The position numbers and the translations under genes are program-made. The notes under the pieces are model-generated. The model was not told the DNA's origin, did not search any database, and was given only the letters and a program-made list of their open reading frames with translations. This document shows, in pieces, positions 12,108 to 28,051 of a stretch of DNA of 41,472 bases. Source of the DNA: an uncultured Bacteroidota bacterium (lineage in GTDB: Bacteria; Bacteroidota; Bacteroidia; Bacteroidales; P3); assembly GCA_902778925.1 (NCBI GenBank), contig CACYZN010000022.1, positions 1-41,472 of the forward strand, written 5' to 3'. Every line of letters starts with the position of its first letter. The first letter of the stretch is position 1.

Positions 12108-13109
12108 TTATATCATATTTATGCCCAAGTTCATCAGGAAATAATAGAGACCGACATTGTTCACATTGGACGAATCGCCAGGAACCGTTATGTAGAGATG
12201 GGTACGTCGTGACCCAAGCACTCCTATGCCGTTGTCGATATTGGAATAGACTTGACGCATGTCCACGTCGCTGGAAGCCACCGATTCTGTCGACAGGTAG
12301 GCATTTAGTTCTTCTGAACATGCCATAAGGTATATGTCGAACATGCGCAAATACACCTTCTCGCGAGGGTCATCTTTCAGGCGCTGTTGCAGTTCCTCGA
12401 GGAATGTGACGCGAGGATAGTAGAGATAGTAACTACTGGCAGTGCTGCCCGGTACATTGCCGCACATAAAGTCTTCGTACATTACAGTGTCGTCGATAGA
12501 ATAATAGAAGCGTACCACTGGCTGATAGCGGCGGGCATTTTGCAATGCCGGCCACTCGATGCGACAGAATGCCGACGACGAGCCATTCCTGTCGTAGAAA
12601 CCAAAACGTCCTGAAGACCACGGCTTTGTTATCACCTTTTCGGCAGTTTGCACCACCAACGACACTGGCTTGCTCGAAGCAATCAGCGTATTGTCGGAGT
12701 TGCGCCACACGTGGATAACATACTGACAGTTCTCTTTCAGCAAATCCTTTGTACGGCAATAATACATAGGCTGTGCCTCGTTGGCGAACTCGCCTTCGCG
12801 ACGGGTCCTTTCTGTATAGGTGAACGGTAGAGAGTCTTGAAGCACACTGTTGTGGTAAGCCAAAAGGGCTACCCGAATGGCACCCGGCTGGTAGTTGAAC
12901 GAATCGCTCACAGAGGAATAGGTATGTATATCGGCATTGCCAAGGTAACAACGCTCGACCCTTGCCCAGGTGGTGTCGTCGTCCTGATCAAGTACACAGT
13001 ATACCACCGGAACATCCTTCCATTCTGCGTTGGGCGAGAAATCAACCTCGCACGAAACAAACAGCACCACAGCGAACAACAGCAACAGTATCGACAGGTT
13101 TTTCTTCAT
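12108..13109 (-). CDS. DUF4249-like outer-membrane lipoprotein
   Basis: A 333-residue lipoprotein (lipobox LFVSC after a leucine-rich signal). Its early segment DVPVVYCVLDQDDDTTWARVERCYLG resembles the start of the DUF4249 family of Bacteroidota surface lipoproteins, which often accompany outer-membrane receptors; this match is by eye. It holds several aromatic beta-strand-like stretches and no catalytic motif I recognise. The ATG at 13109 gives MKKNLSILLLLF and follows the upstream stop by one base. It is the last gene of the unit beginning at kamD. GC content is visibly lower than in kamD. Confidence 0.7.
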   Translation of the reverse strand: MKKNLSILLLLFAVVLFVSCEVDFSPNAEWKDVPVVYCVLDQDDDTTWARVERCYLGNADIHTYSSVSDSFNYQPGAIRVALLAYHNSVLQDSLPFTYTERTRREGEFANEAQPMYYCRTKDLLKENCQYVIHVWRNSDNTLIASSKPVSLVVQTAEKVITKPWSSGRFGFYDRNGSSSAFCRIEWPALQNARRYQPVVRFYYSIDDTVMYEDFMCGNVPGSTASSYYLYYPRVTFLEELQQRLKDDPREKVYLRMFDIYLMACSEELNAYLSTESVASSDVDMRQVYSNIDNGIGVLGSRRTHLYITVPGDSSNVNNVGLYYFLMNLGINMI

Positions 13110-13110
13110 T

Positions 13111-16100
13111 CTATTCTCCATTTTCATTTTTGGATGCCATGCGTTCCGACACACTTATCTCGTCCATCAACAACCAAGGCTTAAGCCCTTTGGCACGATG
13201 CCACACAGGTATCTTTTCGACGACCAAAGGTTCTATTTTTACATATCCCACGCTGTCAAGGTGTATTGGTATCAAGAGCTCAACAACACGTGCCTCGGCA
13301 TTATCCTGACTGGCTGGGTCAAACGGTATTTCACAGACTTTCTCGTTGCTGTAATTGGTACCGTCGGACGAGAATGTGAGGCGTACCTGCTTCGGAGCAA
13401 AAGCCCATGTGGCAGGCACATGAGCAAACCGCAGCGCGATGGTCTCTATATCGACATTCTTAGACAGTTCCACAATAGTAACCACACTGCTGCCTGAAAA
13501 GCCCACCCAACCATGCGTGAGGTCATCGATTGAGCCTCGCTCGCCATCATTAAGTATGGTATCGGCACCTACATTATAAGGGGTGTTTGGCTTGCGCGAG
13601 AAGGTTGTCTTTACAATATAGTCGTAATAGAAACGGCGGGTTGTTGTGAACGACGAAGGCGTTCCCTCTGCGAACTGCTTGGCCTTTATAATAGTAGTCG
13701 CGGTCAAAACTATGGGATCGCCATAAATAGGCGAATCGCTGGTAGGCTCGGTACCGTCGAGTGTGTATCGTATGGTTGCATTGGGGGCGCCTTTTATTGT
13801 TATTGTCAGTGGCTGCGAAAAACGAGCTGCCGACGACTCGATAACTGGCGGTTCAAGCGCACCTGTCGACATCGGCGGATAGTCGGTAGACAATATTTCT
13901 GGGACATCCTGACGAGAGTATCCATTACCGATATGCAGACGGAAATTGTTTTGTGACTGAGGAGCCACCGTCAATCGGTCGGCATCGATAGTCACACCAC
14001 ACAGTCCATCGAGAACACGGACAAATGTGCTACTTTCTTCCCCATAGACAGCAGCCCAACGCACTTGCTGGCGCGTCATGTTAGACTTTGGCCTATAGTA
14101 TGTACCTATTACTCCAGAGTTACTATTTTGGAATACGACCTCTCGGTCGAGGCCAAACCAAGCCACACTATCGCCACTGCAACCCGTAATATCAATTGTC
14201 GGCTTCAGTTGTTCTTTCACTCCATCTGCTGCCGATACCGTATATTCTACAACGACATCGTTACCACCGTAGAACACATACGTCGTCCTAACATCACACA
14301 TGGCCGTTCCCACTTCAGAGACATAGCGCCACAAAGCGTCGACACACGTAGTGCCTCGGTTTGGATGGCGTACCACGCTGTCCACCATCTCCGCCGACCA
14401 TCTGTCATGCCCCTCAAAACGAAGCATCAGACGATGTATGGTTGATGAAATCATACCGTCCGACTGCTCTTCCCTACCAGTTTCAAGTCTGTGCTTTGGG
14501 GCGGTCGGTTGGTTTAACCGGAATATCATCTTACCAACTTCGGAACGGTTATTGCCCCTGCGGCTAAGGTTGAAACGGATAAAGAGTTCCTCTCCAGCTG
14601 TAAGATCGAGTTGCGGGATACGCATACTCACCTTGTCGACACCGCCACCGGAAGCTGCCACCGGAAGGTCACCAGCTATGATATTGGGACGAAGATTGGT
14701 ATAGATTGTATAATCTAACGAATAATGGTTCAATCCCGAGAAGTCATTACAGTTGTATACTATGAACTCTCCTTCGTCTGGCGATATTTTTGACAGGCTG
14801 ACATCAAAAGGGCTATAGAGTTGTCGCAGTTCAGAGAGCAAGACACTACCAAGCGGCCAAATATCCACAAACCCACCTTGAAGGCTTCTGTTGTTTTTAA
14901 CGAGCTGCCACAACGGTTCTAACTGGGCGAAATCATCTCGTCCAACCGATGCCAACATCAAAAAAGGCCTCGTACTTGCTTTAGCCAGCGATTGTTCTAA
15001 TACTGATACCGATGGCTTAATCGGTGCAATTATATCAGTTGCATCACCATAGTCGGCACCGGAGAAAATAACCGGCCTACTTCGGTCAAGGGCTTTCATC
15101 CGACGGTACGCAGCAGTCATACAGACTCCGTTATCCATGCTATTACCCAGCGACCATGCAATAATACTACTATGGTTTTTGTATTTGCCATACAAGTGCT
15201 CCACACGTTGCTCGAATGCCGGAATAAAGTCGTGTTCTGTAGCCAAAGCCCTGCGCTGTGTCGAGACTGGCAACAGATTGGCGTCAGCCACCACATAGAG
15301 ACCATATTGATCGCACAACTCATAGAAGTAAGCATCCATCGGCGAAAAGCGGGCTGTACGAACCGCATTGATGTTATTATTCTTCATCGTTACCACGTCG
15401 CGCAACATCTGTTCGCGCGACGCGTAACCCTCAGTATGTTCTATTCCATAGACCACACCCTTAACTGTAATAGGCTTGCCGTTGAGTTGAAGCGTACCAT
15501 CCTTTACCTCTACACGTCGGAAGCCAAACCGAGTGGCCACCGTCTCTTCTTCCTCCATTTTCTCGTTCCGCAAGCGCACCACGGCAGTATACAGCATAGG
15601 CTGCTCGGCATTCCAAGGCAACACACCACTCCACGTACGACTCATGTCGACCAATTCTTCCGACTTTTTGTCGAATATTACCCAACGCCCCATACGATCC
15701 AGCTGCTGTCCTTTTGGATCCCAGACCTCAACCTCAACGTAATACCTTCCCTTACGACGGCTATTGTACACCTGCACATCTATTCCCAACGTACCGTTAC
15801 CTGCCTCGTAGTCGGTCGAAACAGCCATATCGGATATGCAAGGATCGGTCTTAAACAGAAGATATGGTTCTCCGTTTAGTCCAACTGTCAGAGTACTGTC
15901 TTCAAGCAATGCCCCCTGAGGGTGTAGCATAGCCTCTATAGTCAACGTATTAGGTTTGCCGTATTTAAGATACTTGTCGAGCGAGAACTCGTGCCACAGA
16001 CGAGAGTCATCCTCATAACCCACTTCCTTATCGTTAACATATACACGACATGCTCGCCCACATCGAACATTGAGGAATACAAGATACTCTTTCCACACCT

Positions 16101-16323
16101 TGTCGACATCCAGTTGCCGGCGATAAATCACCGAACTGTCGGTATGTTGCTGTTTCCAACTACCCGACAGTTCAAGGTAGTATGGCGACTCACGATAGGC
16201 CAGACGGTCTATACCCTCATCACCGTCGTATGCCGCGACATTGGCACGTGGAGTCATCACTGGTTGGGACTCCATAGCAAACATCGGCCACAAGAGCACT
16301 ACCATTGCCAACAACCGGCGCAT
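13111..16323 (-). CDS. LacZ-like GH2 protein lacking both catalytic glutamates (predicted pseudoenzyme)
   Basis: A 1070-residue exported protein with intact LacZ architecture. It has a jelly-roll sugar-binding domain (about 40-165), an Ig-like domain (170-270), a TIM barrel (275-500) and a degenerate Bgal_small_N domain to about 790. A chitobiase-type module follows (ATIRYTLDGTEPTSDSPIYG), then an F5/8-type C module ending WHRAKGLKPWLLMDEISV. The acid/base Glu of WSLGNE is Ser395 (WSLGNSMDNG), and the nucleophile Glu of ILCEY is Ala458 (FLMLASVGRD). The Mg-site motif DEANIETHG is ADANLLPVS (346-354). The frame is uninterrupted, so it looks maintained, perhaps as a glycan-binding or structural surface protein. 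GC is low (27 of 60 in the lines at 14101 and 15001). Confidence 0.88.
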   Translation of the reverse strand: MRRLLAMVVLLWPMFAMESQPVMTPRANVAAYDGDEGIDRLAYRESPYYLELSGSWKQQHTDSSVIYRRQLDVDKVWKEYLVFLNVRCGRACRVYVNDKEVGYEDDSRLWHEFSLDKYLKYGKPNTLTIEAMLHPQGALLEDSTLTVGLNGEPYLLFKTDPCISDMAVSTDYEAGNGTLGIDVQVYNSRRKGRYYVEVEVWDPKGQQLDRMGRWVIFDKKSEELVDMSRTWSGVLPWNAEQPMLYTAVVRLRNEKMEEEETVATRFGFRRVEVKDGTLQLNGKPITVKGVVYGIEHTEGYASREQMLRDVVTMKNNNINAVRTARFSPMDAYFYELCDQYGLYVVADANLLPVSTQRRALATEHDFIPAFEQRVEHLYGKYKNHSSIIAWSLGNSMDNGVCMTAAYRRMKALDRSRPVIFSGADYGDATDIIAPIKPSVSVLEQSLAKASTRPFLMLASVGRDDFAQLEPLWQLVKNNRSLQGGFVDIWPLGSVLLSELRQLYSPFDVSLSKISPDEGEFIVYNCNDFSGLNHYSLDYTIYTNLRPNIIAGDLPVAASGGGVDKVSMRIPQLDLTAGEELFIRFNLSRRGNNRSEVGKMIFRLNQPTAPKHRLETGREEQSDGMISSTIHRLMLRFEGHDRWSAEMVDSVVRHPNRGTTCVDALWRYVSEVGTAMCDVRTTYVFYGGNDVVVEYTVSAADGVKEQLKPTIDITGCSGDSVAWFGLDREVVFQNSNSGVIGTYYRPKSNMTRQQVRWAAVYGEESSTFVRVLDGLCGVTIDADRLTVAPQSQNNFRLHIGNGYSRQDVPEILSTDYPPMSTGALEPPVIESSAARFSQPLTITIKGAPNATIRYTLDGTEPTSDSPIYGDPIVLTATTIIKAKQFAEGTPSSFTTTRRFYYDYIVKTTFSRKPNTPYNVGADTILNDGERGSIDDLTHGWVGFSGSSVVTIVELSKNVDIETIALRFAHVPATWAFAPKQVRLTFSSDGTNYSNEKVCEIPFDPASQDNAEARVVELLIPIHLDSVGYVKIEPLVVEKIPVWHRAKGLKPWLLMDEISVSERMASKNENGE

Positions 16324-16335
16324 AATCGTCTTGTT

Positions 16336-16941
16336 TTAGAAGTATAAACATGCACCGATGAAGAGCATGTGTAACACCACAGCATCCTCAAGGTACGGCA
16401 CTTCGTCGCCAAATTCATTAATCATCGAACGCTTCAGCTTGTTCGATTGGAGCAGCTTATAGCCCACGTGACCGCCCACGGCGAAGTTGCGGTTCAGGGC
16501 ATAGCGGGCACCTAAATCGAGGCCAAAATAGAGGCCACCCTCGGTAATCTCGATGCTAGGAGGTTCGCTCGACGACCCCAGAGGCATCGTATAGCCCACC
16601 TGCAATGCAGTATAGGGTGTCAGCTGTCCTCGACTGAGGTGACTCCGTAATTCAACATATACCGGCAATTGGGTATAAGCACCTGACGGGTCGGCCAAAT
16701 AGGTAAAACCCACACCGACACCCGCTTCCTTGCTAAACTGGAAGCCAGCGCTGAACCCCATGCCTAACATGCCTGCCGTGTCGGCCACCCCATTAAGGCC
16801 CTCGCCTCGGTTTAGGTTAAAGCCATACGACATGTCGAGAGTTCCATAGAATCCTCGCCATCTATATTCCACATGTCGCTGTGCGGCTGCTGTGCCTATT
16901 AGGCACAGCAGCGCTACAGCAGCAATGATTGTCTTTTTCAT
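16336..16941 (-). CDS. Small outer-membrane beta-barrel protein
   Basis: A 201-residue exported protein with signal MKKTIIAAVALLCLIGTAAAQ. Amphipathic strands follow, for example FYGTLDMSYGFNL, GMGFSAGFQF, TPYTALQVGYTMPLG, and FGLDLGARYALNRNFAVGGHVGYKLL. It ends in an aromatic residue (LYF), which fits an 8-stranded OmpA/OmpX-type barrel. No function is recognisable. It starts 9 nt after the CoA-transferase stop and ends 12 nt before the LacZ-like gene, so it bridges the fermentation genes and the envelope genes. Confidence 0.78.
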   Translation of the reverse strand: MKKTIIAAVALLCLIGTAAAQRHVEYRWRGFYGTLDMSYGFNLNRGEGLNGVADTAGMLGMGFSAGFQFSKEAGVGVGFTYLADPSGAYTQLPVYVELRSHLSRGQLTPYTALQVGYTMPLGSSSEPPSIEITEGGLYFGLDLGARYALNRNFAVGGHVGYKLLQSNKLKRSMINEFGDEVPYLEDAVVLHMLFIGACLYF

Positions 16942-16950
16942 AGACTCCAG

Positions 16951-17610
16951 TTAAGCATTCATCTTCTTGAGGGTGGGGCTAACAATAAGTGTAGCCTCAG
17001 TGGCAGCCTGCACCTGTTCGACGGTGAACTCGGGGTTGATCTCGGTGAGCACAATACCCTTGGGGGTAATCTCCATCACACCCATCTCGGTGATAATCAT
17101 GTTCACCTGGCCCTTGGCGGTCAACGGAAGGGTGCATTTCTTCAATATCTTGGGGTTGCCTTTGGCTGTGTGCTCCATAGCAAGTATCACCTTCTTGGCA
17201 CCCACCAGCAGATCCATGGCTCCACCCATACCGGGGGTCTTCTTGCCAGGAATCATCCAGTTTGCGAGGTCGCCTTCTTCGTCGACCTGCATAGCACCGA
17301 GAACACTCACGTCCACGTGGCCACCACGAATGATGCCGAACGACGTGGCACTATCGAATGTCGAAGCGCCAGGCACATGGGTGATGTATCCACCGCCTGC
17401 ATTGATGAACCAGGGGTCTTCTTTACCATCTTCGGGAGTGGGACCCATGCCAATCATACCGTTTTCACTCTGCAACACCACATGTACTCCCTCGGGCAGA
17501 TAGTTAGGAATAAGGGTCGGCAGACCGATACCAAGGTTTACGACATCGCCGTCGTGCAGCTCCTGAGCCGCGCGCTTAGCAATAAAAGGTTTAATTTCTT
17601 CTTTTGTCAT
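16951..17610 (-). CDS. atoA: Acetoacetate/butyrate-type CoA-transferase, subunit B
   Basis: The 219-residue beta subunit of a family I CoA-transferase. The CoA-thioester Glu49 lies in the SENG motif (LQSENGMIGMG), and the family segments GAMQVDEEGDLANWMIPGK and GMGGAMDLLVGAKKV are present. In lysine fermentation such enzymes move CoA between butyryl-CoA and acetoacetate. The partner alpha subunit is not adjacent and not in the window, which is unusual but has a parallel in Porphyromonas gingivalis, where as I recall the two subunits are separated. It follows kamE by 51 nt. Subunit identity is firm; substrate is inferred from the neighbours. Confidence 0.88.
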   Translation of the reverse strand: MTKEEIKPFIAKRAAQELHDGDVVNLGIGLPTLIPNYLPEGVHVVLQSENGMIGMGPTPEDGKEDPWFINAGGGYITHVPGASTFDSATSFGIIRGGHVDVSVLGAMQVDEEGDLANWMIPGKKTPGMGGAMDLLVGAKKVILAMEHTAKGNPKILKKCTLPLTAKGQVNMIITEMGVMEITPKGIVLTEINPEFTVEQVQAATEATLIVSPTLKKMNA

Positions 17611-17661: not shown

Positions 17662-18450
17662 TTATTTCCATCCACGGTTCACCATCTCCTGTGCCACAAA
17701 CGATGCAACATCGTCGGCATAGGTATTGGCGCCGAAGCCGGCATCGTACCCCAGTTCCTTGGCCAACTCATGGCTGATGCGGGGACCGCCGCAGATAAGG
17801 ATTACCTTGTCGCGCAGACCTTCTGCCTCGAGCATCTCGACCAACTCGGTCATATTCTTTATATGCACATCCTTCTGGGTGACAGTCTGGCTTACGAGCA
17901 ATGCGTCAGCATGTAGTTCTATTGCCTTGGCTATAAACTCGTCGTTTGGCACCTGACTGCCGAGGTTGTAGGCGTCAATCATATCGTAGCGCTCCAGACC
18001 ATAATGGCCGGCGTAGCCCTTCATATTCATAATGGCGTCGATACCCACAGTATGCGCATCGGTACCGGTCGAAGCTCCCACACAGACAATCTTACGGCCT
18101 ATATGCTCACGGATATACTCGTCACACTCTTTCATCTCCATGGTGGTGCTCTCCACCTTGGGTACATGTATGTTGGTATAATCGACCGTGTGTGTCAATG
18201 AACCATAGCAGTTCATGAAGCAGAAGCCCCCGGTCAGCTCTTTCTGGTATACCACCAGCGGGTTCTCGAAGCCCATCTTCTTCAACAGCTGCTTGGCGGC
18301 CTCTTCGGCTTCGGCACCGGCAGGCACCGGCAGAGTGAAACTCAGCTGCACCTTGCCATCGTTCATTGTGTCGCCATATGGCTTTATCTTGGTGAGGTCA
18401 AGGGTTTTATCGTAATCCTTTGCCTCCATCGAATACAATCCTTCGCTCAT
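17662..18450 (-). CDS. kamE: D-lysine 5,6-aminomutase beta subunit
   Basis: The 262-residue subunit of the adenosylcobalamin- and PLP-dependent mutase that moves the terminal amino group of lysine or beta-lysine. The B12-binding motif DAHTVG places the cobalt ligand His at residue 133. The PLP-binding Lys falls at residue 144 (MNMKGYAGHYG). Both match the numbering known for the clostridial enzyme. A Rossmann-type cobalamin domain follows, with the LLVSQTVTQKDVHIKNM and LICGGPRISHELAKELGYDAGFG loops. It starts one base after the kamD stop. The subunit sizes (518 plus 262) fit lysine mutase rather than ornithine 4,5-aminomutase. Confidence 0.96.
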   Translation of the reverse strand: MSEGLYSMEAKDYDKTLDLTKIKPYGDTMNDGKVQLSFTLPVPAGAEAEEAAKQLLKKMGFENPLVVYQKELTGGFCFMNCYGSLTHTVDYTNIHVPKVESTTMEMKECDEYIREHIGRKIVCVGASTGTDAHTVGIDAIMNMKGYAGHYGLERYDMIDAYNLGSQVPNDEFIAKAIELHADALLVSQTVTQKDVHIKNMTELVEMLEAEGLRDKVILICGGPRISHELAKELGYDAGFGANTYADDVASFVAQEMVNRGWK

Positions 18451-18451
18451 A

Positions 18452-20008
18452 TTATTTCTTTCCTTTCATTAATTCAACAAACGGATTAAAGTAGTGCTCG
18501 CCCTTGAGGGTGACGCCGTCAAGGCCCTTGCCGCCGTTCTTGGGACGCTTCACGTTTGCGAAGATACCCTTCTCCAAGGCGGTGAAGAGGCCTTCGCTCT
18601 CCATGGCTTCAAGCAGCTTGGTGGCATCGTGCAGCACCTTCTGGGCACGACTCTTGATGATGCCACCGTCCTTAAACTCCACCTCCTCACCAATATCCTT
18701 CATATTGTTGAAGATGTACTTGGCGTTCTCGATGCTCAGGTAGCGGTCACTCATGAAGGGCGTATGTATAGCCTCGGTGGGCATACCCAGCAGCTGCAAA
18801 CCCTGGTGCGTCCACTGGCCGATGACGTTGAACAGAGCATCCTGTATGTGGCCGCGGAAGATGTTACCGGTCATAAACTTGGTCGGCGGCATATACTTAA
18901 GCGGTGCATTGGGGAATATCTCGCGCAACATCTGAGCCTGTGCCAGTTCGTAAAGGAAGCCGTTCTCGAGCATGGGGTCCATCTCGAAGGCGTGACCGAG
19001 ACCCTGCTGCTCCGAAGGCAGACCGGCCATGAAAGCCAACTGTTCATTGATGAAGTCCGATGCCAGCACAGTGTGAGCCTCCTCGTATGCGTCGGCGGTG
19101 GTCAGGTAGTTATCCTCGCCGGTGTTGATGATGACGCCTGCAAAGCCGTTGATGATGCGACTGAAGTACTGGTCTATCAGCGTGCGCTGCATGTTGATAT
19201 CGCGGAAGAGGATGCCATAGAGTGCGTCGTTGAGCATCACATCGAGGCCTTCGAGTGCGCCCATGGCGGCGATTTCCGGCATGCAGAGGCCCGAACAGTA
19301 GTTGCAGAGGCGGATGTAGCGGCCCACTTCCTCGCCCACCTCGTCGAGTGCCTTGCGCATGATGCGGAAGTTTTCCTGGGTGGCGAAGGTGCCGCCGAAG
19401 CCTTCTGTGGTGGCGCCATAGGGCACGTAGTCTAGCAGCGACTGACCGGTAGTGCGAATCACAGCTATAATATCGGCACCCTGACGGGCACCGGCCTGGG
19501 CTTGCACCACATCCTCGTAGATATTGCCCGTGGCCACGATGATGTAGAGGTAGGGCTTCGAGCCTTCGCCTATGGTCTCGATGTATTTCTCACGACGCAG
19601 ACGGTTGCCGCGCACCTTGTCGATGGTCTGTTTAATGACAGGCTCCAGAGCCTTGTCGATTTCGGCCTTTGAATGCACAGGCAGCTGGGTGATGTCGAGC
19701 TTGCCGGCGGCAATGGCCTCGGCTATCTGCTGCGGTGTTTTGCCGGTCTCTACCATGGCATTGCCCACATAGAACATCACGCCTTGGCCCAGCACGCCTT
19801 TGCTCTTCAGTTCCTCGACCACCACATTGGGCATCGGCACCTCGTTCTCGTCGATACCGTCGATGCCGAGGAAACGGCATAGTGTGCGCTCCACAGCCAC
19901 AGTGGTGTAGTCTTCCACGAAGTCCTGCACTTGTCCGGCTATGTTGCGGGCTACAGACCGTGCATGTTCAACTTCCACAAAATCAAGTCCTACTTTACTC
20001 TCTTGCAT
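18452..20008 (-). CDS. kamD: D-lysine 5,6-aminomutase alpha subunit
   Basis: The 518-residue TIM-barrel subunit that binds adenosylcobalamin and substrate together with KamE. Family segments are HARSVARNIAGQVQDF at the start, PYLYIIVATGNIYEDVVQAQAGARQGADIIAVIRTTGQSLLDYVPYG in overlapping pieces, and GFGGTFATQENFRIMRKALDE. Also present are LCNYCSGLCMPEIAAMGALEGLDVMLNDA and TPFMSDRYLS. Length is normal. It is the first gene of a six-gene tight run down to the DUF4249-like lipoprotein and has a good promoter 50 nt upstream. The other lysine-pathway genes (kamA, kdd, kce, kal) are not in the window. Confidence 0.97.
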   Translation of the reverse strand: MQESKVGLDFVEVEHARSVARNIAGQVQDFVEDYTTVAVERTLCRFLGIDGIDENEVPMPNVVVEELKSKGVLGQGVMFYVGNAMVETGKTPQQIAEAIAAGKLDITQLPVHSKAEIDKALEPVIKQTIDKVRGNRLRREKYIETIGEGSKPYLYIIVATGNIYEDVVQAQAGARQGADIIAVIRTTGQSLLDYVPYGATTEGFGGTFATQENFRIMRKALDEVGEEVGRYIRLCNYCSGLCMPEIAAMGALEGLDVMLNDALYGILFRDINMQRTLIDQYFSRIINGFAGVIINTGEDNYLTTADAYEEAHTVLASDFINEQLAFMAGLPSEQQGLGHAFEMDPMLENGFLYELAQAQMLREIFPNAPLKYMPPTKFMTGNIFRGHIQDALFNVIGQWTHQGLQLLGMPTEAIHTPFMSDRYLSIENAKYIFNNMKDIGEEVEFKDGGIIKSRAQKVLHDATKLLEAMESEGLFTALEKGIFANVKRPKNGGKGLDGVTLKGEHYFNPFVELMKGKK

Positions 20009-24700: not shown

Positions 24701-24748
24701 GGTCACTCTGCGTTTAGCACTATGCTAAACATTAAGGTAAAAGTGACC
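24701..24748 (+). promoter_or_regulatory. porU: Nested hairpin enclosing the porU start codon
   Basis: An inner 8-bp stem (GTTTAGCA 24712-24719 with TGCTAAAC 24723-24730) places the A of the ATG in a 3-base loop and TG in the stem. An outer 7-bp stem pairs GGTCACT (24701-24707) with AGTGACC (24742-24748). No clear TAnnTTTG promoter was found upstream of porU. Confidence 0.45.
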
Positions 24749-27700
24749 AAAAGACTATTGGTATATATCGCCCTCGTGGCGGCGGCCGTATGCGGCACGC
24801 TGCAGGCCACGGCGCAGCAGTCGGTGCTGGCCGACGGCAGCTGGTGGCGGCTCGAGGTGACGCGCACGGGCGTCTATGCCGTGGGCGTGGCCGACGTGCC
24901 GGCGCTGCAAGGGGTGGCGGTAGACCGAATAAATATGTACGGTATGGCCGGCAACCAGTTGCCGACCGACAACCGGCGGGTGCCCACCACCGGGCTGACG
25001 GCCATTGCCATCGACGTGGTGGACCGCAACGGCAACGGCACCTTCGACTCGGGCGACGAGGTGCTCTTCTTCGGCGAGGGATGCGACGTGTGGCGCTACC
25101 ACACGGGCGACGCCCGCTGGGAGATGCAGCGCCACGCCTACGCCTCGGCCAACTACTACTTCCTCACCACCACCTCGGCGGCGGCACCGCACCGCATTGG
25201 CAGCGGCACCGCCACGACGGCCGACACCACGGTGGCGTCGTACACTGCGGTGGCGGTGGTGAACAACGACATGACCAACATCTACAAGACCGGCCAACTC
25301 TGGATGGGCGAGAAGTTCTCGGCGGGCAACACCTCGCGCAGCTTCACCCTCGCCCTCCCGTCCACCGCCACCGGCATACGGATGCGCTACGCCCTGGCGA
25401 ACAAGAGCACCGCCAACGGCCGCTTCGACGTGAGCACCACCGGCCTCAGCCGCACCCACTTCATCTCGGCCAGCAAGGTATACACCACCGTGCTGGAGTC
25501 GACCACGGCATCGGCCCAGAGCCTCACCTTCGGCATCACCTACACCCCCGGCGAGAACTCGGCCGAGGGCTACCTGGACTATATCGAGTTGACGGGCCAT
25601 GTGCCGCTCGCCTTCACCGGTAGCCAGCTGATGGTGCGCAACGACCAAGGCCTGGGGCACGCCACCGTGGGCTACACCCTGAGCGGCGACAACGGAGCCC
25701 GCGTGTGGGAGGTTACCCATGCCGGCGCCGAGCGCGAGCTACAGCTGACGAACGGGCGCTGGACAGACAGCATCGGCGGCGAGGCTCGGCAATACATAGT
25801 GTTCGGGGCCAACCGGCTGCTGCCGGCATCGGTGAGCGCCGTAGCCAACCAGAACCTGCGCGGTGCCGCACAGGCCGACTACATAGTGGTGTGCAACCCG
25901 CAGTTCCGCACCCAGGCCGAGCGCCTGACCGCACTACACGCCATAAACGACGACTTGTCGACCCTAGTGGTCACCGACAGACAGGTATACAACGAATACT
26001 CGGGCGGCAAGCAGGACCCGATGGCCATACGCACCTTCCTGCGGTCGATGCGCGAGCGCCACCCCGACGCCCCGCCCCGCTACCTGCTGCTCTTCGGCAA
26101 GGCCACCTACGACAACCGCGACCTGCTGGGCTACAACCTGCCCACGGTGGTCACCTACGAGACCGAAGCCTCGTTCGACGACCAGGGCGCCTCGTACTGC
26201 AGCGACGACATGATGGGCTACCTGGACAGCGCCGAGACCGGTGCCTCGACCCAGAACCTCGACATAGCTATAGGCCGTCTGCCGGCCCGCAACGCCGCCG
26301 AGGCCGACCATCTGGTCGACAAGATAGAAGGCTACCTGATGCGCAGCGACCTGCACGACGAAAGCCAACGCGGCGACTGGCGCAACTACATAGCCCTGCT
26401 CTCGGACGACGCCGACCCCTCGCACCCGGGCGACACCGCCTTCGTCCACTCGTCGGAAGCCACCGCCAACCGCATCAAGCAGCAGTTCCCGGTGTTCAAC
26501 ATCGACCGTCTCTATGCCGACTCCTACCACCAGCAGAGCGGCGCCATAGGCTCGTTCTACCCCGACCTGAACAACGCCCTGCGGCAACGGGTCAACTACG
26601 GCTGCCTGCTGCTCAACTACATCGGGCACGGTTCAATTAAATACATAGGCACCGAGCGCTACGTGGAGCCCGGCGACATAGTGGCCTACTCGAACATAGG
26701 CCGAACCCCGTTGTTCGTAACCAGCACCTGCTCCTACGGCTACCACGACCTGCCCGACGACCAATGCGGAGCCGAGCTGTGCGTGCTGGCCCAGGGAGCC
26801 GCCATAGCCGTGGTCAGCGCAAGCCGTCCGATAAGCCACATCGAGCGCTTCAACACCGACGTGGTGCTCTTCGCCCTCGACCACGACAACACCATAGGCG
26901 AAGCACTGCGCATGGCCAAGAACCGCACAGCTGTGTCGCCATGCATAGGCCTCACCGGCGATCCCGCCCTGCGGCTCTCGCACCCACAGCACGAAGTGGT
27001 GGTGACCCACATCGACGGCCACGCCGTAGACGACGGCAACGACACCGCCACCGCGCTGTCGCAGGTCACGGTGAGCGGCGAGATACGCGACGCCAACGGA
27101 CAGCGGCTCGACGACTTCGACGGTACCGTATACCCCATCGTCTTAGACCGCGAGAGCCAAAGCACCACGCTGGCCAACGACAATCCCGATACCGAAGTGC
27201 GCTTCGCCCAGCAGAAAAGCATACTCTACAAAGGGGCCGAGCCCGTCAGGGGCGGCCGCTTCGAGTACACCTTCACCGTGCCTCGCGACGTGCCCTACCA
27301 GTTCGCCGCCGGCAAGTTGAGCCATTACGCAAAAGGTGGGAGCGACGACGCTGCCGGACAGTACGGCAGGCTCCTCTTCGGCGGACTGAACGAGGATGTA
27401 GACATACATGAGACACGGCCCGTGATAGAACTCTACGTGGGCGATACCAACTTCCGCAACGGCGGCCTTGTAGGCCCCACCCCCACCCTGCTGGCACGTC
27501 TCTCGGACTCGATAGGCATCAACGCCTTCGGCTCGGGTTTGGGACACGACATCACAGCCACCCTCGACGGCAACGCCGGCAGCACCATCGTGCTTAACGA
27601 CTTCTACGAGGCCGACCTCGACGACAGCCGCCGCGGCAGCGTGCGCTACACCCTCGAACAGCTCGCCCCCGGCCGCCATACACTCACCCTCAAAGCCTGG

Positions 27701-28051
27701 AATATCTGGGGCTACTCCAGCACCGCCACCATCGCATTCCGCGTGGGCTCGGTCGACGAGACCGACTTCTCCACCCTCGCCATGTATCCCAATCCGGCCA
27801 GCTCCCAAGCCTGCTTCCACATTGAGACCAACAGCCCCGAGACCATCGCCGAAGCCGTGCTGCACATATATTCACCACAAGGGGCACTGATCTACACCAC
27901 CGCCGCCACCATCACCGACGGCAGCTACGTGGTAGGCCCCGTGCGGTGGGACCTCTCCAATGTGAAGGCCGGCATCTACATGGCACGCATGCTGATAACC
28001 ACCACCGACGGAGAAATACACCAGTCGGCGACAAAATGTATAGTACGGTAA
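24722..28051 (+). CDS. porU: Type IX secretion system sortase PorU
   Basis: The 1109-residue outer-membrane-associated C25 cysteine peptidase that removes the sorting domain of T9SS cargo and attaches it to lipopolysaccharide. After a signal peptide (residues about 1-31) comes a beta-rich region, then the gingipain-type domain (about 380-760). His636 lies in NYIGHGS and the nucleophile Cys670 in TSTCSYG; the 34-residue spacing is close to that of P. gingivalis PorU. A C-terminal sorting-like domain follows (MYPNPASSQ to AGIYMARML), which PorU is known to retain. porV follows after 39 nt, the order known from P. gingivalis. Length and motifs are complete. Confidence 0.95.
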   Translation: MLNIKVKVTKRLLVYIALVAAAVCGTLQATAQQSVLADGSWWRLEVTRTGVYAVGVADVPALQGVAVDRINMYGMAGNQLPTDNRRVPTTGLTAIAIDVVDRNGNGTFDSGDEVLFFGEGCDVWRYHTGDARWEMQRHAYASANYYFLTTTSAAAPHRIGSGTATTADTTVASYTAVAVVNNDMTNIYKTGQLWMGEKFSAGNTSRSFTLALPSTATGIRMRYALANKSTANGRFDVSTTGLSRTHFISASKVYTTVLESTTASAQSLTFGITYTPGENSAEGYLDYIELTGHVPLAFTGSQLMVRNDQGLGHATVGYTLSGDNGARVWEVTHAGAERELQLTNGRWTDSIGGEARQYIVFGANRLLPASVSAVANQNLRGAAQADYIVVCNPQFRTQAERLTALHAINDDLSTLVVTDRQVYNEYSGGKQDPMAIRTFLRSMRERHPDAPPRYLLLFGKATYDNRDLLGYNLPTVVTYETEASFDDQGASYCSDDMMGYLDSAETGASTQNLDIAIGRLPARNAAEADHLVDKIEGYLMRSDLHDESQRGDWRNYIALLSDDADPSHPGDTAFVHSSEATANRIKQQFPVFNIDRLYADSYHQQSGAIGSFYPDLNNALRQRVNYGCLLLNYIGHGSIKYIGTERYVEPGDIVAYSNIGRTPLFVTSTCSYGYHDLPDDQCGAELCVLAQGAAIAVVSASRPISHIERFNTDVVLFALDHDNTIGEALRMAKNRTAVSPCIGLTGDPALRLSHPQHEVVVTHIDGHAVDDGNDTATALSQVTVSGEIRDANGQRLDDFDGTVYPIVLDRESQSTTLANDNPDTEVRFAQQKSILYKGAEPVRGGRFEYTFTVPRDVPYQFAAGKLSHYAKGGSDDAAGQYGRLLFGGLNEDVDIHETRPVIELYVGDTNFRNGGLVGPTPTLLARLSDSIGINAFGSGLGHDITATLDGNAGSTIVLNDFYEADLDDSRRGSVRYTLEQLAPGRHTLTLKAWNIWGYSSTATIAFRVGSVDETDFSTLAMYPNPASSQACFHIETNSPETIAEAVLHIYSPQGALIYTTAATITDGSYVVGPVRWDLSNVKAGIYMARMLITTTDGEIHQSATKCIVR

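Follow-up and report, generated by a model that had tools for sequence, protein, structure and literature searches.

A LacZ-derived protein lacking the catalytic residues is conserved beside lysine fermentation genes in a genus of Bacteroidales

The locus and the domain structure of the protein

The window analysed is a stretch of 41,472 nucleotides from an uncultured member of the Bacteroidales (assembly GCA_902778925.1, contig CACYZN010000022.1, positions 1 to 41,472). It contains a gene for a protein resembling β-galactosidase, here called pseudo-LacZ (Table 1). The reading frame of 1070 codons starts with ATG and has no internal stop codon, so the frame is intact as the preliminary description claimed.

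Table 1. Pseudo-LacZ, its domains and sites and the neighbouring genes; positions are those of the window.
Feature	Position	Strand	Basis
LacZ-derived pseudo-glycosidase, 1070 aa	13111..16323	-	ORF; Pfam GH2 domains; catalytic Glu absent
Likely signal peptide, residues ~1-20, no Cys	16264..16323	-	Sequence, by eye
GH2 N-terminal sugar-binding-type domain, residues 61-143	15895..16143	-	Pfam PF02837
GH2 Ig-like domain, residues 163-269; 8 of the 28 residues that are conserved in the pseudo-LacZ clade alone lie here	15517..15837	-	Pfam PF00703
TIM barrel, residues 271 to ~505	14809..15513	-	Pfam PF02836 (271-489); model secondary structure
Codons 351-353, Mg-site E416/H418 to Leu351/Val353	15265..15273	-	Alignment
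Codon 395, acid/base E461 to Ser	15139..15141	-	Alignment
Codon 458, site of nucleophile E537; Ala or a deletion, depending on the alignment	14950..14952	-	Alignment
CHB_HEX_C / Fn3-associated domain, residues 834-895	13639..13824	-	Pfam PF13290, PF13287
F5/8-type (CBM32-like) C-terminal module, residues ~905-1060	13144..13611	-	BT0459 (6q63) match, sequence and fold
Small β-barrel OMP, 201 aa, 12 bp upstream	16336..16941	-	Pfam OMP_b-brl
DUF4249-type protein of 333 aa, 1 bp downstream, with a lipobox-like Cys (by eye)	12108..13109	-	Pfam DUF4249, E=4.2e-4, under the Pfam cut-off
3-oxoacid CoA-transferase subunit B, upstream, same gene run	16951..17610	-	NCBIfam TIGR02428
Lysine 5,6-aminomutase subunit beta	17662..18450	-	NCBIfam NF052385
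Lysine 5,6-aminomutase subunit alpha	18452..20008	-	NCBIfam NF052384

The protein belongs to family GH2 by homology, the N-terminal, Ig-like and TIM-barrel domains all exceeding the Pfam cut-offs (Glyco_hydro_2_N, E=3.6e-8; Glyco_hydro_2, 4.1e-9; Glyco_hydro_2_C, 7.9e-33). Domain 4 of LacZ gave a weak match under the cut-off (E=0.022). The best PDB relatives by sequence, over residues 55-493, were the β-galactosidases of Thermotoga maritima and E. coli (E from 7.6e-51 to ~1e-48). LacZ enzymes also led the fold matches, with low TM-scores of 0.36-0.41 for the whole model. Of the two C-terminal modules which had been described as carbohydrate-binding in type, one clearly is so, namely the F5/8-type module, whose top fold match was BT0459 (E=7.6e-14). 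The other is the CHB_HEX_C/Fn3-associated domain (CHB_HEX_C_1, E=2.5e-14).

The AlphaFold2 model was modest (mean pLDDT 70.8, pTM 0.45) and therefore supports the fold but not a superposition on LacZ residue by residue. As the strands were read from the model, residue 395 follows barrel strand 4 (387-391) and residue 458 follows strand 7 (454-456). These are the catalytic positions of clan GH-A.

The N-terminus, read by eye, resembles a signal peptide with no lipobox or cysteine in the stretch, and export of the protein is predicted. The Por_Secre_tail domain of type IX secretion was absent from pseudo-LacZ among Pfam matches up to E=5. The genome as a whole has 54 Por_Secre_tail matches, 49 of them above the cut-off, and type IX secretion is therefore likely to operate in this organism. 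Elsewhere in the window, at 24722-28051 on the + strand, lies a gingipain-type Peptidase C25 with a weak Por_Secre_tail match which is a likely cargo of that system.

Conservation of the neighbouring genes

The gene order is aminomutase alpha, aminomutase beta, CoA-transferase B, OMP, pseudo-LacZ, DUF4249 and trigger factor, with gaps in the window of 9, 12 and 1 bp from the CoA-transferase through to the DUF4249 gene. Among 34 loci of the genus an OMP gene on the same strand was found in 33, as was the DUF4249 gene, and genome G376 has both. Of the 34 loci, 32 have the CoA-transferase gene, 31 that of aminomutase alpha, 31 that of aminomutase beta and 24 that of trigger factor, several loci being cut by contig ends. 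The gap upstream of pseudo-LacZ does not exceed 46 bp at 29 of the 32 loci measured, a figure which leans short since the ATG nearest to +12 was taken. The DUF4249 gene is more than 200 bp away at 9 of the 33 loci and likewise in G376, some of them with an unassigned frame in between.

Three genomes of the sister genus (G115, G219 and G309) have the aminomutase and CoA-transferase genes, and the trio of OMP, pseudo-LacZ and DUF4249 was not found there within 7.6-8 kb beyond the lysine genes. Matches to the OMP were found in 25 of 197 other genomes of the order, the best being 28% identical (E=1.6e-9). Pseudo-LacZ lies outside any recognised sugar-utilisation locus: the 28 window ORFs scanned gave no SusC or SusD Pfam match at E<=0.001, such as would mark a polysaccharide-utilisation locus, and no recognisable TonB receptor.

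Loss of the active site

Pseudo-LacZ was aligned with E. coli LacZ and with intact paralogues. The acid/base E461 of LacZ is replaced by Ser395, and E416 and H418 by Leu351 and Val353, as had been noted in the preliminary description. The replacement extends further, to H391 (Arg325), H357 (Gly293), D201 (Thr144), H540 (Ser459), W568 (Asp487), M502 and Y503, while N102, F601 and N604 fall in gaps. In LacZ, E416 and H418 belong to the Mg site and D201, H357, H391, H540, W568, F601 and N604 are sugar contacts; the letters of these residues matched the lacZ sequence. The columns were compared at ~30% identity, so the partners of D201, M502 and Y503 are the least certain. Of 15 LacZ site residues tabulated, N460 is the sole one retained (Asn394). 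The intact paralogue in the same genome (L001) has every one of the LacZ site residues above and differs only at W999. Thus the protein lacks the catalytic pair, the metal site and the listed sugar contacts of a LacZ enzyme, and the loss is wider than was first described.

The nucleophile E537 falls on Ala458 in the MAFFT alignment and in a gap in the HMMER alignment, the match being dependent on the alignment because there is a two-residue deletion at this point. The claim that the glutamate is absent therefore holds, and the claim that alanine takes its place depends on the method. By either alignment the eight columns around this site hold neither Glu nor Asp in the window protein, and no other Glu was found at either catalytic position.

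The same pattern was found in every copy of the gene that was counted. Both glutamates are absent from 36 of 36 pseudo-LacZ copies. Of the intact proteins that span the two sites, 33 of 33 have the pair; 12 of them belong to the genus, 20 come from elsewhere and the last is E. coli LacZ (L092, L095, L126 and L127 were left out of this count). A substitute Glu in the eight columns around the nucleophile was seen in 0 of 36 copies. Over the 36 copies, which include L042-L075 and L115, the N460 column holds Asp in nine and Glu, one residue ahead of the acid/base site (WSLGE), in eight others, the window copy not being one of these.

Distribution and phylogeny

The gene was found in 36 of 38 genomes of the genus, namely 34 of 36 searched, the genome of the window itself and G376. 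Two genomes, G011 (67% complete) and G034 (68% complete), did not yield the gene. Aminomutase beta likewise had no match in them, and a missing match in an incomplete genome is weak evidence. A truncated LacZ-like frame of 538 amino acids that stops within the barrel is present in G011 (L095:504-2117); its acid/base residue is Ser and its counterpart of E416 is Asp. Loci L035, L037 and L039 also lack the catalytic residues and are additional to the 36 counted; L039 (7971-10364) is a pseudo-LacZ copy missing ~300 residues, comprising domain 5 and the CHB domain, and retaining the C-terminal module.

In trees rooted at the midpoint the 36 copies form one clade with branch support of 100/100. The clade persisted with 100% SH-aLRT support by a quick method after removal of the pocket columns together with the three columns flanking them on either side. 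(The trees, and the set of intact proteins used for column entropy below, exclude loci L076, L092, L095, L121, L126 and L127.) The simplest history would be a single loss before the genus diversified. The loss was thus found to be fixed across the orthologues of the genus.

From outside the genus 23 loci (8+15) were aligned, which is a small share of the matches in 393 genomes of the order, and 20 of the 23 have both glutamates. Of the other three, L092 is truncated by the end of its contig, and the remaining two, L126 and L127 (G397:C128 and G333:C24), have the nucleophile Glu but Asn or Lys in place of the acid/base Glu. These two are short GH2-like proteins of 696 amino acids, come from a different family within the order and may be a separate degenerate GH2 group.

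Selection on the gene

Values of dN/dS were 0.126, 0.076, 0.077 and 0.141 for four close pairs of pseudo-LacZ copies, with dS of 0.46, 0.63, 2.05 and 1.20 respectively, the third pair being near saturation at a dS of 2.05. The frames ran from stop to stop and so include a few extra codons ahead of the start. The window copy itself is not in these pairs, its nearest full-length match having 58% identity (65% in G008, over residues 1-617). For comparison, three pairs of intact LacZ gave 0.338, 0.124 and 0.115. The dN/dS of pseudo-LacZ exceeds that of the adjacent CoA-transferase and aminomutase genes (0.00-0.06) and is about equal to or above that of the OMP gene (0.06-0.14); the DUF4249 value for L054/L055 was set aside because of an over-long frame. 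Pseudo-LacZ is under clear purifying selection.

A single one of the tabulated active-site residues survives, as might be seen in a decaying pseudogene. However, each of the 36 copies is a single open frame, the copies form one clade, dN/dS is far below 1 and the neighbouring genes are conserved, making decay extremely improbable; the open frames, single clade and dN/dS rule it out as an explanation. The gene is a pseudo-glycosidase in the sense that the catalytic residues are lost while frame and selection are kept. The earlier proposal of a maintained protein that is non-catalytic rather than decaying is well supported by the presence in 36 of 38 genomes, the single clade, dN/dS of 0.08-0.14 and the conserved gene order.

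Where the constraint lies

The pocket columns (12 scorable) have a mean of 0.07 bits in 31 intact proteins and 2.54 bits in the 36 pseudo-LacZ copies, the latter being greater than the barrel mean of 1.55 bits (resampling, 5e-5). Gaps occur at F601 and N604 in 26 of the 36 copies and at N102 in 35. A glycan receptor in which the barrel pocket still binds sugar without catalysis would fit the retention of fold and domain order, and 22 of the 36 copies have either Asn or Asp at N460. However, the hypervariability of the pocket and the gaps at F601, N604 and N102 count against such a receptor and it is unlikely. The earlier suggestion of a surface glycan receptor or scaffold is plausible; the evidence speaks against the old pocket as its binding site, and it may bind through the C-terminal module.

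Mean pairwise identity in the intact LacZ proteins of the genus (n=11) is 0.71 for the barrel, their best conserved domain, and 0.43 for the CBM; their values for the CHB domain and domain 4 are unreliable because of gaps. In 35 pseudo-LacZ copies it is 0.39 for the N-terminal domain, 0.52 for Ig, 0.49 for the barrel, 0.55 for CHB and 0.51 for the CBM. When the 17 nearest copies were compared the CBM (0.58) was not above the barrel (0.60) or Ig domain (0.63), so constraint has moved towards the module to a modest extent at most. Residues W939, G941, W973, P977, W1041, H1042, D1054 and E1055 of the module are common to pseudo-LacZ and to those intact proteins that have the module. Conversely, 28 residues are conserved in the pseudo-LacZ clade and not in intact enzymes, including five in the C-terminal module and also P352 and D397, which follow strands 3 and 4 respectively; those fixed in the Ig domain include E199, W201, W214, F217 and M256. 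The variable pocket, the shared module residues and the newly fixed residues therefore speak for a protein kept for its scaffold, for new surfaces and for the C-terminal module and not for the old pocket.

The protein might alternatively be a new enzyme, catalysis having switched to other conserved residues such as D347, D397, N398 and D430. D397 and D347 each occur in 34 of 36 copies; intact enzymes have mostly Gly at the former position and Glu at the latter. N398 and D430 are found in 35 of 35 rows compared. However, D347 and D397 are each absent from two members, and Asp occurs at the nucleophile column in one of 36 copies, two columns on in one and three columns on in two. A switch of catalysis is very unlikely.

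Proposed role

The active site has been lost, yet the gene remains intact and in the same place in nearly every genome, and the protein has therefore probably been repurposed as a non-enzymatic protein of the envelope. Our favoured reading, to which we give somewhat better than even weight, is that pseudo-LacZ is an exported descendant of a GH2 enzyme kept for binding or for a structural role, acting through its C-terminal module and its partners. The catalytic and metal-site residues would have been lost once, ahead of the diversification of the genus. The scaffold would have persisted after the sugar pocket had gone, leaving the CBM32-like module as the part most likely to contact a ligand, and any contact with glycan is predicted to be through this module. 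The barrel and Ig domain would hold the protein together and probably contact the OMP and DUF4249 neighbours in a putative complex. Weighing against this reading are the module's conservation, no higher than that of the barrel in the nearest copies, the loci at which the DUF4249 gene is not directly adjacent, and the position outside a sugar-utilisation locus.

A related explanation is that pseudo-LacZ is a protein-protein adaptor or assembly factor for the OMP and DUF4249 pair with no glycan role. The conserved neighbours and the Ig residues fixed in this clade would agree with this, and a DUF4249 protein from elsewhere, BT2173, has been proposed to act with a TonB-dependent transporter (PMC11003636). 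Against it, the carbohydrate-type C-terminal module retains residues common to intact enzymes and a long gap precedes the DUF4249 gene in 9 of 33 loci. An adaptor without a glycan role is possible but appears less probable than the favoured envelope protein.

A fuller scenario, offered tentatively and as a rather doubtful one, is that an ancestral LacZ was captured behind the lysine fermentation genes together with the OMP and DUF4249 genes, was deprived of catalysis in a single event and came to form the soluble component of a new three-protein envelope complex that defines the genus. The complex would be a device for uptake or sensing which lacks an adjacent TonB-dependent transporter, and the GH2 barrel would serve as a protein-interaction scaffold and not as a sugar site.

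The annotation 'beta-galactosidase' can thus mislead in these gut Bacteroidales (sheep colon, roe deer rumen). The family is also a clear example from nature of how selection can release a catalytic pocket while scaffold and binding-type module are still constrained.

Comparison with known systems

Conserved pseudo-glycosidases are a known kind of protein; no example of the LacZ/GH2 type that is fixed throughout a bacterial genus and lies beside lysine genes was found in the open-access literature searched with narrow terms. Pseudo-LacZ shares domain order and barrel scaffold with LacZ-type GH2 enzymes such as E. coli LacZ and L001, and some intact copies (e.g. L001 and L116) have a related C-terminal module. 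It differs from them in the loss of the catalytic, metal-site and most sugar-contact residues, in the missing N102 region and, in most copies, in a shortened substrate loop after strand 8. The GH20 β-hexosaminidase BT0459 (6q63) has the same tandem of CHB_HEX_C-like and F5/8-like domains, but there the tandem is joined to a hexosaminidase domain.

Chi-lectins belong to family GH18. Pseudoglycosidases such as the chi-lectins and klotho, the latter being GH1-like, likewise reuse a glycosidase fold without catalysis, but they are animal proteins of other GH families that bind through the glycosidase domain (PMC7828330), and such binding looks unlikely in pseudo-LacZ.

The nearest precedent is GH26B of Segatella copri, which has lost both catalytic residues, showed no activity and was proposed to be a binding protein, though trials with mannan-type ligands all gave no binding (PMC12704710). 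As neither activity nor mannan binding was found for it, the same caution should apply to pseudo-LacZ. GH26B lies in a glucomannan locus with SusC/D and is of family GH26 where pseudo-LacZ is of GH2, but both are Bacteroidales homologues of glycosidases in which both catalytic residues are lost and the loss is conserved, in the case of GH26B in many S. copri genomes (PMC12704710).
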